The notes under the pieces are model-generated. The model saw nothing but the letters and a program-made list of their open reading frames with translations, was not told the DNA's origin and did not search any database. 60,443 bases of DNA from Candidatus Nomurabacteria bacterium GW2011_GWB1_40_7 (GTDB lineage: Bacteria > Patescibacteriota > Minisyncoccia > Phycocordibacterales > UBA9973), in the NCBI GenBank assembly GCA_000994705.1, contig LBZL01000003.1, positions 10,215-70,657 of the forward strand. Direction: 5' to 3'. A program made the position numbers and the translations under genes. This document shows, piece after piece, positions 3,190 to 54,392 of this stretch (its first letter is position 1; each line of letters begins with the position of its first letter).

Positions 3190-5324
3190 TTTTCAACCAT
3201 TAGAAGACTTTTTTCTTTTAAAGGTAGCATCGACCAAATTTCTTCCGTGACAAACGGCATAAAAGGATGAAGAATCTTTAGACATTCAGCCCAAATTAAA
3301 GCTAAAGCAATTTTTCTCTCTTCCGCTTTCTTCCCTCCATTTTTTATAATTTTTTTGCTTTCTTCTATTATTTCATCAGCAAATCTATGCCAAACATATT
3401 GGTAAATTTTTTCCGAAGCCAAATGAAAACGATAGTTTTCCATATCCGCCGTTATCTCTTCCGCAATTTCATAAAACTCTTTTGTAAGTTTATTTTGAAT
3501 ACTGCTTTCAAAATCGTTTTCATCAACATTGTCCGAAATGAAACGGGTAATATTCCAGATTTTATTCGCAAAATTTTTATAACCTCTGATTTTATCCTCC
3601 GAAATTTTTGAATCCGTGCCCGGGGCCGTGCCGACAACAAGCGCCATACGCCCCGCATCGGCGCCGAACTTGTCCGCTATGTCAAGCGGGTCAATGCCGT
3701 TGTTTAAAGATTTGGACATCTTGCGTCCCTTAATGTCGCGGACGGTGCCGTGCAAAAATACCTTTCTAAAAGGTATTTCGCCCAGAGCGTATTGCGACAT
3801 TAAAACCATTCTGGCCACCCAGAAGAAAAGTATTTCATATCCTGTTTCTAAAACATCTGTTGGATGGAATGTTTCCAAATCTTTTGTCTTTTCTGGCCAG
3901 CCAAGGGTAGAGAAAGTCCACAGACTGGAGGAAAACCATGTGTCCAAGGTATCTTCATCTTGTTTCCAATTATCGTTACCCGGAGTCTTCATTCCAACAT
4001 AAATTTCTTCTTTACCAGCCGTGAGTGTGGTCGAACGATACCACACTGGTACTCGATGTCCGTACCAAATCTGACGTGAAATACACCAATCACGCAGGTT
4101 TTCTACCCAATGGAAATACGTTTTTGAAAAATAATCAGGAATAATCTTGATTTTTTCTTTTTCAAACGGTTCACGCATTAGATCTTTTAATGTTTTATTG
4201 TCGCGTTCTTTAATTGGTTTATTAACATCGATAAACCATTGGAGTTTTGGTAATGGTTCTATTATTCCACCAGTTCGTTCTGCGGTAGAGATATTTTGCT
4301 TCACCTCCTCCTCTTTTTCTAAAAGATTTTCACTGCGAAGCCAACTTACAATAATTTCTCGCGCTTCTGTAGTCTTTTTACCCAGTAAATTTTCTCCGCC
4401 GATAGACATTTTGGCGTATTCATTTATAACTTGAGGCCTAGGAAGACTATGTCTATCAGCCATTTCCCAGTCAATTATGGAGTGTGCCGGAGTGACGCCG
4501 AGCGCGCCGGTGCCGAATTCCGGATCCACTTCTTTATCGGCGATAATTTTTATATGCAAAGGCACTCCGCAAAATATCACATCATATTCTTTGCCGACAA
4601 ACTGCTCATATCTCTTGTCATCAGGGTGAATTGCCACGGCCACATCTCCAATTTTTGTCTCAGGCCTGCTGGTTGAAATAGAAATAGGAAAGTCCTTGCT
4701 ATATTTAAAAGTATAAAGTTTTGCATTGCGTTCTTCGTAGACTATCTCATCATCGGAGATTGTAGTTTGTCCTTTTGGATCCCAGTTCACAATTCTGTTT
4801 CCGCGGTAAATCAAGCCGTCATCATACATTTTTTTAAATATCGTGTTCACCGCCAAATTTCTTTTCTCATCTAGGGTAAAGGCCTCCCGAGACCAATCGC
4901 ACGACGCACCCATTACTCTCATCTGGGATGTCATGATATTTTTGTTCTTTTCCACAAATTCATCAATTCGTTTCAATAGTTCCTCGCGACCCAAGTCATA
5001 TCTGGATTTTCCCTCTTTTTTGTATATTTCCTTTTCAACTTTTGACTGAGTCGCTATAGCGGCGTGGTCGGTGCCGGGTAACCATAGAGTTTTGAAGCCC
5101 CGCATGCGTTTATAACGAATCATAATATCTTCAATCGTTAAAAAAAGCGCATGTCCCATGTGTAATGTTCCGGTAGCATTAGGCGGAGGCATCATTATGG
5201 TAAATGTTTCTTTTCTGTCGTCAGGCAGGTTGTCAGGATTAAAGAAGCCACTTTCTTCCCAGAGCTTATAGATTCTGTTTTCTGTTGTTTTAGGGTCATA
5301 GGGTTTCAGCAATTTCTCATCCAT
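3177..5324 (-). CDS. valS: Valyl-tRNA synthetase
   Basis: A class I aminoacyl-tRNA synthetase that charges tRNA-Val. The HIGH signature is HMGH within PPPNATGTLHMGHAL (about residues 45-60); the KMSKS loop is GRKMSKSLNN (near residue 535); the CP1 editing domain lies between them. At 715 residues it is shorter than the usual 850-950; by position the C-terminal coiled-coil arm is missing or minimal. The ATG lies 6 nt after a TATTAT box, so the mRNA may be leaderless. prsW overlaps its 3' end. It may act on tRNA-Val(GAC) encoded at 11406. Confidence 0.96.
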   Translation of the reverse strand: MDEKLLKPYDPKTTENRIYKLWEESGFFNPDNLPDDRKETFTIMMPPPNATGTLHMGHALFLTIEDIMIRYKRMRGFKTLWLPGTDHAAIATQSKVEKEIYKKEGKSRYDLGREELLKRIDEFVEKNKNIMTSQMRVMGASCDWSREAFTLDEKRNLAVNTIFKKMYDDGLIYRGNRIVNWDPKGQTTISDDEIVYEERNAKLYTFKYSKDFPISISTSRPETKIGDVAVAIHPDDKRYEQFVGKEYDVIFCGVPLHIKIIADKEVDPEFGTGALGVTPAHSIIDWEMADRHSLPRPQVINEYAKMSIGGENLLGKKTTEAREIIVSWLRSENLLEKEEEVKQNISTAERTGGIIEPLPKLQWFIDVNKPIKERDNKTLKDLMREPFEKEKIKIIPDYFSKTYFHWVENLRDWCISRQIWYGHRVPVWYRSTTLTAGKEEIYVGMKTPGNDNWKQDEDTLDTWFSSSLWTFSTLGWPEKTKDLETFHPTDVLETGYEILFFWVARMVLMSQYALGEIPFRKVFLHGTVRDIKGRKMSKSLNNGIDPLDIADKFGADAGRMALVVGTAPGTDSKISEDKIRGYKNFANKIWNITRFISDNVDENDFESSIQNKLTKEFYEIAEEITADMENYRFHLASEKIYQYVWHRFADEIIEESKKIIKNGGKKAEERKIALALIWAECLKILHPFMPFVTEEIWSMLPLKEKSLLMVEKWPS

Positions 5325-46742: not shown

Positions 46743-47658
46743 AGAAATAAAAAGAAGAATAAAGAGCATAAAAAATACGAAAAAAATCACGAAAGCGATG
46801 GAGCTGGTGGCGGCTTCAAAGATGAAACGCGCCGTTAATAGCACTCTTGCGTCGCGCCTGTATGCCGAATATTCGTGGGAAATCCTCACTTCTATAGCCA
46901 AAAATCTTGAAGAAAACACGCATCAGTTTTTTGAAGAACGTGAGGTAAAAAACATCTTGCTTATTCTCATCACCTCCAATCGCGGTCTTTGCGGAGCATA
47001 TAACGCACAGATTATAAAAAAAGTTATTTCTTTGTTAAAAACTGAAAACAGCCTGCCTGCGCAGGCAGGAAATATCAATATTGATTTTATTACTGTTGGC
47101 AAAAAAGGCGACATTGCAACGCGCCGCTTGAATAAGAATGTAATTGCCAATTTTTCAGAATTACCCGATGACATAAATCTTTTTGAGATTGTTCCAATAG
47201 CAAAATTAGCGACAGAAGAGTATAACTCTATGCGCTATGATAAAGTTTTGATTGCTTACACGGACTTTGTTTCAGCTCTTGTCCAAAGGCCGAATATCAA
47301 GCAAATTCTCCCCATCTCTAAAACGGATTTAAAAGAATTAATGGATTCTTTAGAAGTAATTAGGGGGAATAAAAAAGAAAATCAAATCAAGGAAGAAAAA
47401 ATTGATTATTTATTTGAAGGAGACTTCAATATGTTAATAGAGTCATTGGCCGAAAAAATTACCCGAATGCAAATTTACCAAATGCTTCTTGAATCAAATG
47501 CTTCTGAACAATCCGCTCGTATGGTGGCGATGAAAAATGCCAGCGAAGCTTCCGGCGAAATGATTGACGATTTAACTTTGATGTTCAATAAAGCAAGACA
47601 AGCGAATATTACCAGAGAAATATCGGAAATCAGCGCCGGCATGGCATCGGTCAGTTAA
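46729..47658 (+). CDS. atpG: ATP synthase F1 subunit gamma (with LPAQAG insertion)
   Basis: 309 residues. N- and C-terminal helices of the rotor: [26 protein letters not shown] and [28 protein letters not shown] (last helix). An 18-bp palindrome at 47052-47069 encodes LPAQAG in the middle domain, a segment with no role in the fold. Confidence 0.95.
47052..47069. repeat. 18-bp palindrome in atpG
   Basis: CCTGCCTGCGCAGGCAGG, perfect palindrome, in frame LPAQAG; identical copy at 54152-54169. Confidence 0.92.
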
Positions 47659-50640: not shown

Positions 50641-52617
50641 TTACAGTAAATCCTCCGGATCCACAAAAACCTCAAAAGTCGGCGGAAGGGAAGAAAGCTT
50701 ATTAAAAAGATTTCCGTCAATTACTGAGTTTATTTTAAGTTCCGGCAAAGACCATTTTTGCGGGTCTGTTTTTATCAATGCATTGGTGACATATTTTTCT
50801 TTTGACTGGGCGACGAATCCACTAAAAATTTCAGGAGAATATTCTTCAAAAATCTCTGCCAAGTTTTTTCTTGCCTTGACCGTTTGTTCCTTGTCGCCCA
50901 AATGGGTTATTTTTATAAAACGCTTGAAGGGTGGATAATTTAATTTTTTCCTATCTTCTAACTCCTCCCGCACGAAAGACAGCAGATTTAAAGATTTAAT
51001 TGCCAGAATTGCTTCATCATCTTTGTTTTTTGTTTGAATAATAAGTTTATCTTTTGTACTGTTTATTATGGACAATGCTATCTGTATAATCTTTTCCCCC
51101 ATCTTATAATTTGGAATACTCCAAAGTGAATCAAAAGAAGCGACGACCGAAAGCGAAGTTTTCTGTTTTAAATAAAAGAAGGCCATTTCAGTCCCGATAA
51201 GTATTGATCCCTGACTTTCCTCAAATTCTTGTATTATTTTTTTAGCACCGCTCGCTGTTTTTGCAGACTCTTTGTCCAGTTTAAAAATTTTGGTTTTTGG
51301 CTCGCCCGTAGGTCTATGCCCGAGGGGAAACAGTTTTTTTATCTCTTGAAAAACCGTGTCGGTGCCAATCCCAAGGGGCATTAAATTCCATCCTCTGCAG
51401 TAACCACAGGATATGTCGCCATCTATTGCTCTTTCACATCTATTGCAGACAAACATTCTTTTCTTAGCTTGGTGGGACATGTAAAGTACCAACGGCGCCC
51501 CACATTTTTCACAGCTTACGGTATCACCGCAATCCTTACATGTAGTTATGGTTGCTAGCCCCTTTCTAAGAGAAAAAATAAAAACATTTCTTTTGTTTTG
51601 GAGGGCAAATTTTATTTCTTTTAGCGCTTCGTCGTTAAATATTTGGAATTTTTTATTATCTCTTTTTTCTCTACCCAAAACTTCTATCTCGCCAGTAAAA
51701 TCAATCCTAAAAGATAATGGGTGTAGGGGATTTAGGTTATCCATATCTTTTCTTTCTATTGTTTCGTAGCGGAGCATTTCATCTGCCATGATAAATCTTG
51801 CATTTATTTTTGATGCGTAAATTTCTACGAAAACTCTTAAATCAAGATTCGGCTTTTGAATCATCCTGTAAGCATTTGAATTTTCGTGCTCGAGAATTAT
51901 GGTGCCGATGTCTTTTTTAGGAATAGCTAAAAATGGCGCAGTGCCGATGATTAAAACTGGATGATCCGAGGTCATTATTTTTTCATAATTTGTTAAAATT
52001 TTTTTTGTACTTATTCCACTATGCATAGAAAAGGTGAATTGTTCAATACCTTTTGACAGCTGACTCGCGAATCTTTCTATATCAAATACCGTAGGCAAAA
52101 CTAAATAAATAGATTTACCCCTCGCAAAAGATTCGCGAATAAGGGTTTTATATACAGACATACGGTCTTCTGTTCTGTATTGGAAGAGCAATTTTTCAGC
52201 CCTTAAGTTTTGTTCTTTTTCTAAAATAGCCTTCTTGTTGTTTTTTATTTTTATTATTTTGTCATATTTTTCTATAAGAATATTTGGAATCAAAGATGCA
52301 ATAGCATTATTTTTATTTTGAACAAAATATTTACTGACACCAGAAACGGTATCTAGAAATTCTTTTAAAAAAATAGAAGCCCCCTTATTTTCGATAACCT
52401 TTCTCAGGTTGAAATTCATTTTTTTTATATTGCTTTTCGCTTCTTTCAACTCTTCGCAGGATGTCACTAGGGCAAGTATTTTTCTGTTCTTTATCGGCAC
52501 GGTAACAATGTTGCCTACAGATATATTTAAGCTCGAAAAATAGGTCAAATCGCCCTTCGGTATGCCTTTTTTAAGCGGTATTACAGATATTATTTTCATG
52601 ATTTTCTTGTATTTCAT
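50641..52617 (-). CDS. PriA-like protein with degenerate helicase motifs
   Basis: 658 residues. Aligns by eye with primosomal protein N': 3'-DNA-binding-like N-terminus, a paired zinc domain (CKDCGDTVSCEKCG, CNRCERA, CGYC) and a C-terminal domain. But the Walker A segment that in PriA reads G-V-T-G-S-G-K-T is QYRTEDRM here (LLFQYRTEDRMSVYK), and DEEH is LEHE (IILEHENSNAYRM), so ATP hydrolysis is unlikely. I recall similar CPR homologues. It may be a non-motor replication-restart or DNA-structure-binding factor. A palindromic insertion at 51300-51327 encodes LGHRPTGEP after KKLFP. Confidence 0.8.
   Translation of the reverse strand: MKYKKIMKIISVIPLKKGIPKGDLTYFSSLNISVGNIVTVPIKNRKILALVTSCEELKEAKSNIKKMNFNLRKVIENKGASIFLKEFLDTVSGVSKYFVQNKNNAIASLIPNILIEKYDKIIKIKNNKKAILEKEQNLRAEKLLFQYRTEDRMSVYKTLIRESFARGKSIYLVLPTVFDIERFASQLSKGIEQFTFSMHSGISTKKILTNYEKIMTSDHPVLIIGTAPFLAIPKKDIGTIILEHENSNAYRMIQKPNLDLRVFVEIYASKINARFIMADEMLRYETIERKDMDNLNPLHPLSFRIDFTGEIEVLGREKRDNKKFQIFNDEALKEIKFALQNKRNVFIFSLRKGLATITTCKDCGDTVSCEKCGAPLVLYMSHQAKKRMFVCNRCERAIDGDISCGYCRGWNLMPLGIGTDTVFQEIKKLFPLGHRPTGEPKTKIFKLDKESAKTASGAKKIIQEFEESQGSILIGTEMAFFYLKQKTSLSVVASFDSLWSIPNYKMGEKIIQIALSIINSTKDKLIIQTKNKDDEAILAIKSLNLLSFVREELEDRKKLNYPPFKRFIKITHLGDKEQTVKARKNLAEIFEEYSPEIFSGFVAQSKEKYVTNALIKTDPQKWSLPELKINSVIDGNLFNKLSSLPPTFEVFVDPEDLL
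51300..51327. repeat. In-frame palindromic element in the PriA-like gene (family A)
   Basis: CTCGGGC-tag-rich centre-GGGCGAG: closely matches rmuC 28277-28305, inserted in the opposite orientation relative to the gene. Confidence 0.78.
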
Positions 52618-52647
52618 TCTAGCATAAATGTGTGTTATATTAGCCCT

Positions 52648-53649: not shown

Positions 53650-54392
53650 TGTCTGTCCTGAAACATCTAGATGAAAAAAATTTGCACCACGCATACTTGA
53701 TAGATGGTGCGAGAGATGAAATTATTCCTGAAATCATAAAATTTTGTGAAAGCATAAATATAAAAACTTTTGGTAATCCCGATTTTGTTCATATTTCAAT
53801 TGATAATTTTAAAATTGACGAAGCGTTTGAATTGCGCGCGATGTCTTCAAACAGGGGATTTTCCCCAACTAATAAAAAGATATTTCTGCTTTGCGCGAAC
53901 AGTCTGTCTTTGGACGCGCAAAATGTTTTGCTCAAAATGTTTGAAGAACCAATAGAAAATACACACTTTTTTTTAATTGTGCCGGACGTTAATGCTCTTT
54001 TGAAAACTCTCGTTTCCAGATTTTATTTGATTAAATCGGAAATAAAATCGGGCGAAAATTTCAAAGTCGCAGAAAAATTTATTGCTATGCCACTCCAAAA
54101 TAGAATAGATTTTATTAAAGAATTGTTAACAGAGCCAGAAGAAGACGAAGACCTGCCTGCGCAGGCAGGGGGAAATAGAACAATTGTTTTAGATTCTACT
54201 CGTTCCAAATCCTTAAATTTCTTAAATGCGCTGGAGTTAATAATTCACCACAGGGGAACCCTGTGTAATTACACAGGGTTCCCCTGTGGTATTTTTGAAC
54301 ATTTTTTCAAAGTTCGCGAATTTCTTCGTATGTCGGGGTCATCCGCAAAAAGCTTGATGGAATCTGTAGCTCTTATTACCCCAGTTTTATAA
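53649..54392 (+). CDS. DNA polymerase III delta'-like subunit, palindrome-bearing
   Basis: 247 residues related to HolB/delta' (clamp-loader subunit): HAYLIDGARDEI, SSNRGFSPTNKKIFLLCANSL, AQNVLLKMFEEPIENTHFFLI, LVSRFYL. No zinc module or P-loop, and shorter than E. coli HolB. Two palindromic insertions: LPAQAG (54152-54169) and a 42-bp perfect palindrome (54248-54289) encoding HRGTLCNYTGFPCG. Both lie after the AAA-like region. Confidence 0.82.
   Translation: MSVLKHLDEKNLHHAYLIDGARDEIIPEIIKFCESINIKTFGNPDFVHISIDNFKIDEAFELRAMSSNRGFSPTNKKIFLLCANSLSLDAQNVLLKMFEEPIENTHFFLIVPDVNALLKTLVSRFYLIKSEIKSGENFKVAEKFIAMPLQNRIDFIKELLTEPEEDEDLPAQAGGNRTIVLDSTRSKSLNFLNALELIIHHRGTLCNYTGFPCGIFEHFFKVREFLRMSGSSAKSLMESVALITPVL
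54152..54169. repeat. 18-bp palindrome in the holB-like gene
   Basis: Identical to 47052-47069 (atpG), same reading frame (LPAQAG). Confidence 0.92.
54248..54289. repeat. 42-bp perfect palindrome in the holB-like gene
   Basis: Left half begins CCACAGGGGAACCCTGTG and is followed by TAATTA and its exact reverse complement. In frame; the longest perfect palindrome in the window. Confidence 0.95.

Follow-up and report, generated by a model that had tools for sequence, protein, structure and literature searches.

A PriA ortholog with lost motor motifs in Candidatus Nomurabacteria: a probable replication-restart pseudohelicase

The priA locus and its product

The window, a stretch of 60,443 nucleotides from Candidatus Nomurabacteria bacterium GW2011_GWB1_40_7 (contig LBZL01000003.1), carries a priA ortholog with lost motor motifs on its minus strand (50641..52617). 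The assignment was based on profile matches, PDB matches and alignment of the 658-residue open reading frame. The likely start codon is at 52599 (residue M7), where the homologs begin. Across the genus, priA adjoins mreB, and rsmI is mostly nearby. The divergent intergenic stretch that separates priA from mreB (52600..52647, no strand assigned) is alike in relatives that carry PriA or a small protein described below.

The gene is a PriA ortholog. The PriA family models NF004066 (E = 5.8e-55) and TIGR00595 (E = 1.6e-51) matched the protein over its helicase, zinc and C-terminal regions, with both matches under the curated cut-offs. PriA chains in the PDB were matched by sequence at E values of about 1e-18. 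For the PriA 3′ DNA-binding domain model PF17764 (cut-off 22.7 bits), the gene scored above the cut-off in the genome search (24.3 bits) and just below it on the open reading frame alone (20.4 bits). An AlphaFold model of the protein was obtained from 72 orthologs (pLDDT 86, pTM 0.84), and its predicted fold matches whole-length PriA. The best PDB structure matches to the model were all PriA (top five entries), with Foldseek E values down to 3.4e-37. VIA-align of the model against PriA chains gave Z values of 21.6–26.4 over at least 528 residues; the next-best structural family was Mfd, with a Z value of 14.9. Named records of related PriAs were mostly from "Candidatus Nomurabacteria" and other Patescibacteria.

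The fold and domains resemble those of E. coli PriA. The 3′ DNA-binding domain spans residues 7–111 (52285..52599, minus strand), as delineated by PF17764 and the model. Conservation, the model and dN/dS delimit the conserved C-terminal region at residues 551–658 (50644..50967, minus strand). The zinc-binding cysteine-rich region (residues 360–407; 51397..51540, minus strand) is intact, as originally predicted: its eight cysteines all align with those of E. coli PriA and are invariant in 72/72 orthologs. E. coli PriA differs from the window protein in its complete set of helicase motifs and in its winged-helix domain, a stretch that comprises 99 residues in E. coli and 23 in the window protein. 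Loss of the winged helix as part of the inactivation was ruled out, since intact Patescibacteria PriAs also lack this domain (median 26 residues). Actinobacterial PriA orthologs are described as lacking helicase motifs or a working helicase site. The window protein belongs to a separate lineage, and PRK05580 models scored it much better than PRK14873 models.

The source genome assembly (548.5 kb, 93.3% complete) was searched for further PriA genes. PF17764 gave one match, the window gene. With TIGR00595, the window gene was the only strong match, and RecG, checked among the weak ones, proved to be a cross-match. Neither search found a second PriA in the 93.3%-complete genome, and the supposition that the gene might be the only PriA of its genome was thus borne out within this assembly.

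Loss of the motor motifs within the order and across Patescibacteria

The motifs were read from an alignment of the window protein with E. coli PriA (locus L192) and 105 other sequences. Relative to E. coli PriA, motif I (Walker A) changed from GVTGSGKT to QYRTEDRM (residues 146–153; 52159..52182), motif Ia from VPEIGLT to LPTVFDI, motif II (Walker B) from DEEHD to EHENS, motif III from GSATPA to ADEMLR (residues 278–283; 51769..51786), and motif VI from QVAGRAGR to SIINSTK (residues 516–522; 51052..51072), all on the minus strand. Two further motifs are still recognizable (GTQM as GTEM and RRGFA as RKGLA). The alignment confirmed the register in which QYRTEDRM had been proposed to replace the Walker A site. 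The predicted loss of motif II also held, but with a register shifted by one residue: the counterpart of DEEH is EHEN (residues 243–246; 51880..51891, minus strand; located by the alignment and a PDB match), not LEHE. A shifted Walker A, which the original prediction allowed might have been overlooked, was seen neither in the window protein nor in its relatives in the alignment.

The window protein therefore lacks SF2 helicase motifs I, II, III and VI, which mark an active PriA helicase. Loss of Walker A and B in an otherwise complete PriA is the hallmark of the Deinococcus-type pseudohelicase, and this combination was found here. Residue R152 aligns with the catalytic lysine K230 of E. coli. 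All orthologs examined from the genus and the order shared this motif loss; it is thus due neither to chance nor to sequencing error. The dead lobe 1 has invariant positions of its own across the 72 orthologs, among them Q146, R152, Y156, R161, F164, A165, S169, G190, H219, E245, D259 and R261, and E243 is nearly invariant.

Of 241 Patescibacteria genomes drawn, 89 scored above the TIGR00595 cut-off. From genomes with high and with low scores, about 80 PriA genes were taken and aligned with those of the window's order. Among the 106 Patescibacteria PriAs compared, 39 were intact and 67 motor-dead (no P-loop), counts that do not represent population frequencies, as the genes were picked by score. 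With E. coli included, the intact rows numbered 40; one sequence (L153, EVTGSGKT) was re-scored by hand as intact. The K230 column held lysine in 40/40 intact rows and arginine in 52/67 motor-dead ones. The DExH glutamate (E321) was kept in 40/40 and 14/67, respectively.

A PriA tree was built without the motif columns. The intact and dead states required at least two changes on it, both forced by well-supported branches; the deeper order of the tree is uncertain owing to long branches, and the number of changes cannot separate loss from regain. One dead sequence (L119, taxon family f88) fell among intact PriAs of the family to which it belongs, with 100% SH-aLRT support. This placement, together with the forced changes, indicates that the motor was very likely lost more than once in Patescibacteria. 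The L119 protein (genome G264) has partly decayed motifs (GATWRRRM, EEEHD and GSCAPS), and it apparently represents a recent, independent motor loss.

A small protein alternating with PriA

A PriA profile search of the genus found the protein in 37/60 genomes. Among the congeners with a completeness of 90% or more and a contamination of 5% or less, 28/45 had PriA and 17 were missing it. In PriA-less congeners, the gap adjoining mreB is filled by a protein of 105–118 residues in the same orientation as priA (L200, L202–L204, L206–L214, L216–L218; for example L207:2672-3004, plus strand). This small protein, absent from the window, occupies the same rsmI–mreB slot as priA, and its mean column identity was 80% (alignment A3). 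It was present in 21/60 genomes of the genus, never together with PriA; neither protein was found in two genomes, which are 88% and 89% complete.

Several PriA loci and several small-protein loci have a similar sequence just upstream of mreB. On a tree of MreB, HolB and Frr, the PriA and small-protein states needed eight changes, at least four of them forced, and a single clade of small-protein genomes was rejected (p-AU 0.0015). These results point to repeated exchange of PriA and the small protein at one locus. Exchange at one place makes exclusivity there automatic, and it does not by itself prove a shared function; replacement is argued for only by the absence of PriA elsewhere in the small-protein genomes. 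The small protein is not a truncated PriA, as it showed no profile similarity to it (hhalign probability 0.2%). Pfam, NCBIfam, PHROGs and PDB sequences gave no usable match. Searches of the phylum and order draws, which contained no known positive, did not detect it. We tentatively suggest that it might take over the reduced job of the motor-dead PriA, as a minimal replication-restart or DnaB-recruiting factor.

The spread of the loss over much of Patescibacteria and the existence of PriA-less congeners go beyond what had been claimed from the window. A literature search without most subscription journals found no paper on motor-dead PriA in Patescibacteria. The type of protein was already known; its spread in this phylum, its repeated origin and its alternation with a small protein are new.

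Selection and the proposed role

The PriA motor is usually deemed valuable for its strong conservation, and Deinococcus–Thermus is a notable exception. In D. radiodurans PriA, both Walker motifs are poorly matched and arginine replaces the lysine; no ATPase was measurable and unwinding was negligible. Its binding of ssDNA and forks nevertheless comes close to that of the E. coli protein, and evidence of an interaction with DnaB has been presented (PMC4504706). The lysine-to-arginine change alone abolishes the ATPase of E. coli PriA (cited in PMC4504706), and the ATPase-dead K230R and K230A mutants of E. coli still assemble primosomes or load DnaB (PMC4504706, PMC10175261). The window protein resembles D. 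radiodurans PriA as an ortholog that lost both Walker motifs and has arginine where motif I normally has its lysine. It differs in belonging to another phylum, in the additional erosion of motifs Ia, III and VI, in the occurrence of the loss in many Patescibacteria lineages, and in being known here from its sequence.

With these precedents, the window protein is probably a PriA pseudohelicase, which would bind forks and serve, independently of ATP, as a platform for DnaB recruitment. The analysis itself showed orthology, the predicted fold, the motif loss, the retained zinc ligands, purifying selection and the single copy in the assembly, and the function is inferred from them. The protein keeps the 3′ DNA-binding domain, two RecA-like lobes, the zinc region and the C-terminal domain. 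The residues for ATP binding and hydrolysis are missing, and it would have no ATPase. It would most likely recognize abandoned forks or D-loops, and it would recruit and place DnaB without ATP, with the zinc region and the C-terminal domain serving as putative docks for partners. RecG, PcrA/UvrD or another helicase could supply any unwinding required at the fork. Restart without the PriA motor and a structural DNA-binding factor, the two options of the original prediction, would then be one model, the one established for D. radiodurans PriA, and the comparison supports this view.

The gene is under purifying selection. Pairwise dN/dS over the whole priA was 0.11–0.14 where synonymous sites were unsaturated. 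By domain, it was about 0.03–0.2 for most and about 0.1 overall; the dead lobe 1 (0.07–0.14) was constrained as much as the rest of the protein. A decaying pseudogene was ruled out by the dN/dS of about 0.1 and by the motor loss common to the order. The eroded motifs and the absence of PriA from 17/45 well-assembled congeners might suggest a gene heading for loss by genome reduction. This is scarcely credible, since the frame is open and of normal length, the low dN/dS in all domains contradicts decay, the new residues of lobe 1 are invariant, and orthologs with identical losses occur throughout the order.

Repurposing away from restart, for example into a structural or regulatory DNA-binding protein without DnaB contact, would fit the disappearance of every motor motif, the fast divergence of the orthologs at the order level (30–40% identity) and the many congeners that manage without PriA. 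We consider it unlikely, as the strong conservation extends beyond the DNA-binding domain to the zinc region and the C-terminal domain, and the closest tested precedent retained its fork and DnaB interaction (PMC4504706). It is more improbable still that ATP is used through a remodeled, non-canonical pocket built from R152, E243 and E245. R152 and E245 are invariant in the 72 orthologs and E243 nearly so, but the glycine-rich P-loop, the DExH glutamate E321 and the arginines of motif VI are all lost, and the lysine-to-arginine change is by itself enough to kill the E. coli ATPase (cited in PMC4504706). Two findings stand against the preferred reading of a DnaB-recruiting platform. The role must be dispensable, or done by something else, in the many congeners without PriA, and the candidate DnaB loader DciA (PF05258) had to be rejected: it gave no match in the source genome or in the listed same-order genomes, which may be a limit of sensitivity.

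In Patescibacteria, the motor was lost in many lineages, mostly with the lysine-to-arginine change that D. radiodurans PriA also has, and the remainder of the protein stayed under strong selection. This pattern supports the view that PriA is essential for marking forks and positioning the replicative helicase. The minimal activity required could be probed directly through the repeated exchange of PriA with the small protein.

DciA was found in 90/241 Patescibacteria genomes, many of which have a motor-dead PriA; the listed genomes that belong to the order and class of the window gave no DciA match. The source genome encodes DnaB (L222). Its dnaB is interrupted by a short stretch of Ns, with a change of reading frame (L222 about 2000–2130; near 11200 of C1 of the same genome), most likely an assembly gap and not a broken gene. 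The other helicases of the genome include RecG (L196), PcrA/UvrD (L193), a DEAD-box helicase (L195) and a second UvrD-type helicase (L194), the end of which weakly matches Cas4-like sequences. Three protein genes contain, in frame, the perfect 18-bp palindrome CCTGCCTGCGCAGGCAGG, which adds LPAQAG to each product: atpG (47052–47069) and holB (54152–54169) in the window, and the pcrA-like gene of L193 (near 3213–3230). This repeat resembles a small palindromic insert that proteins tolerate.
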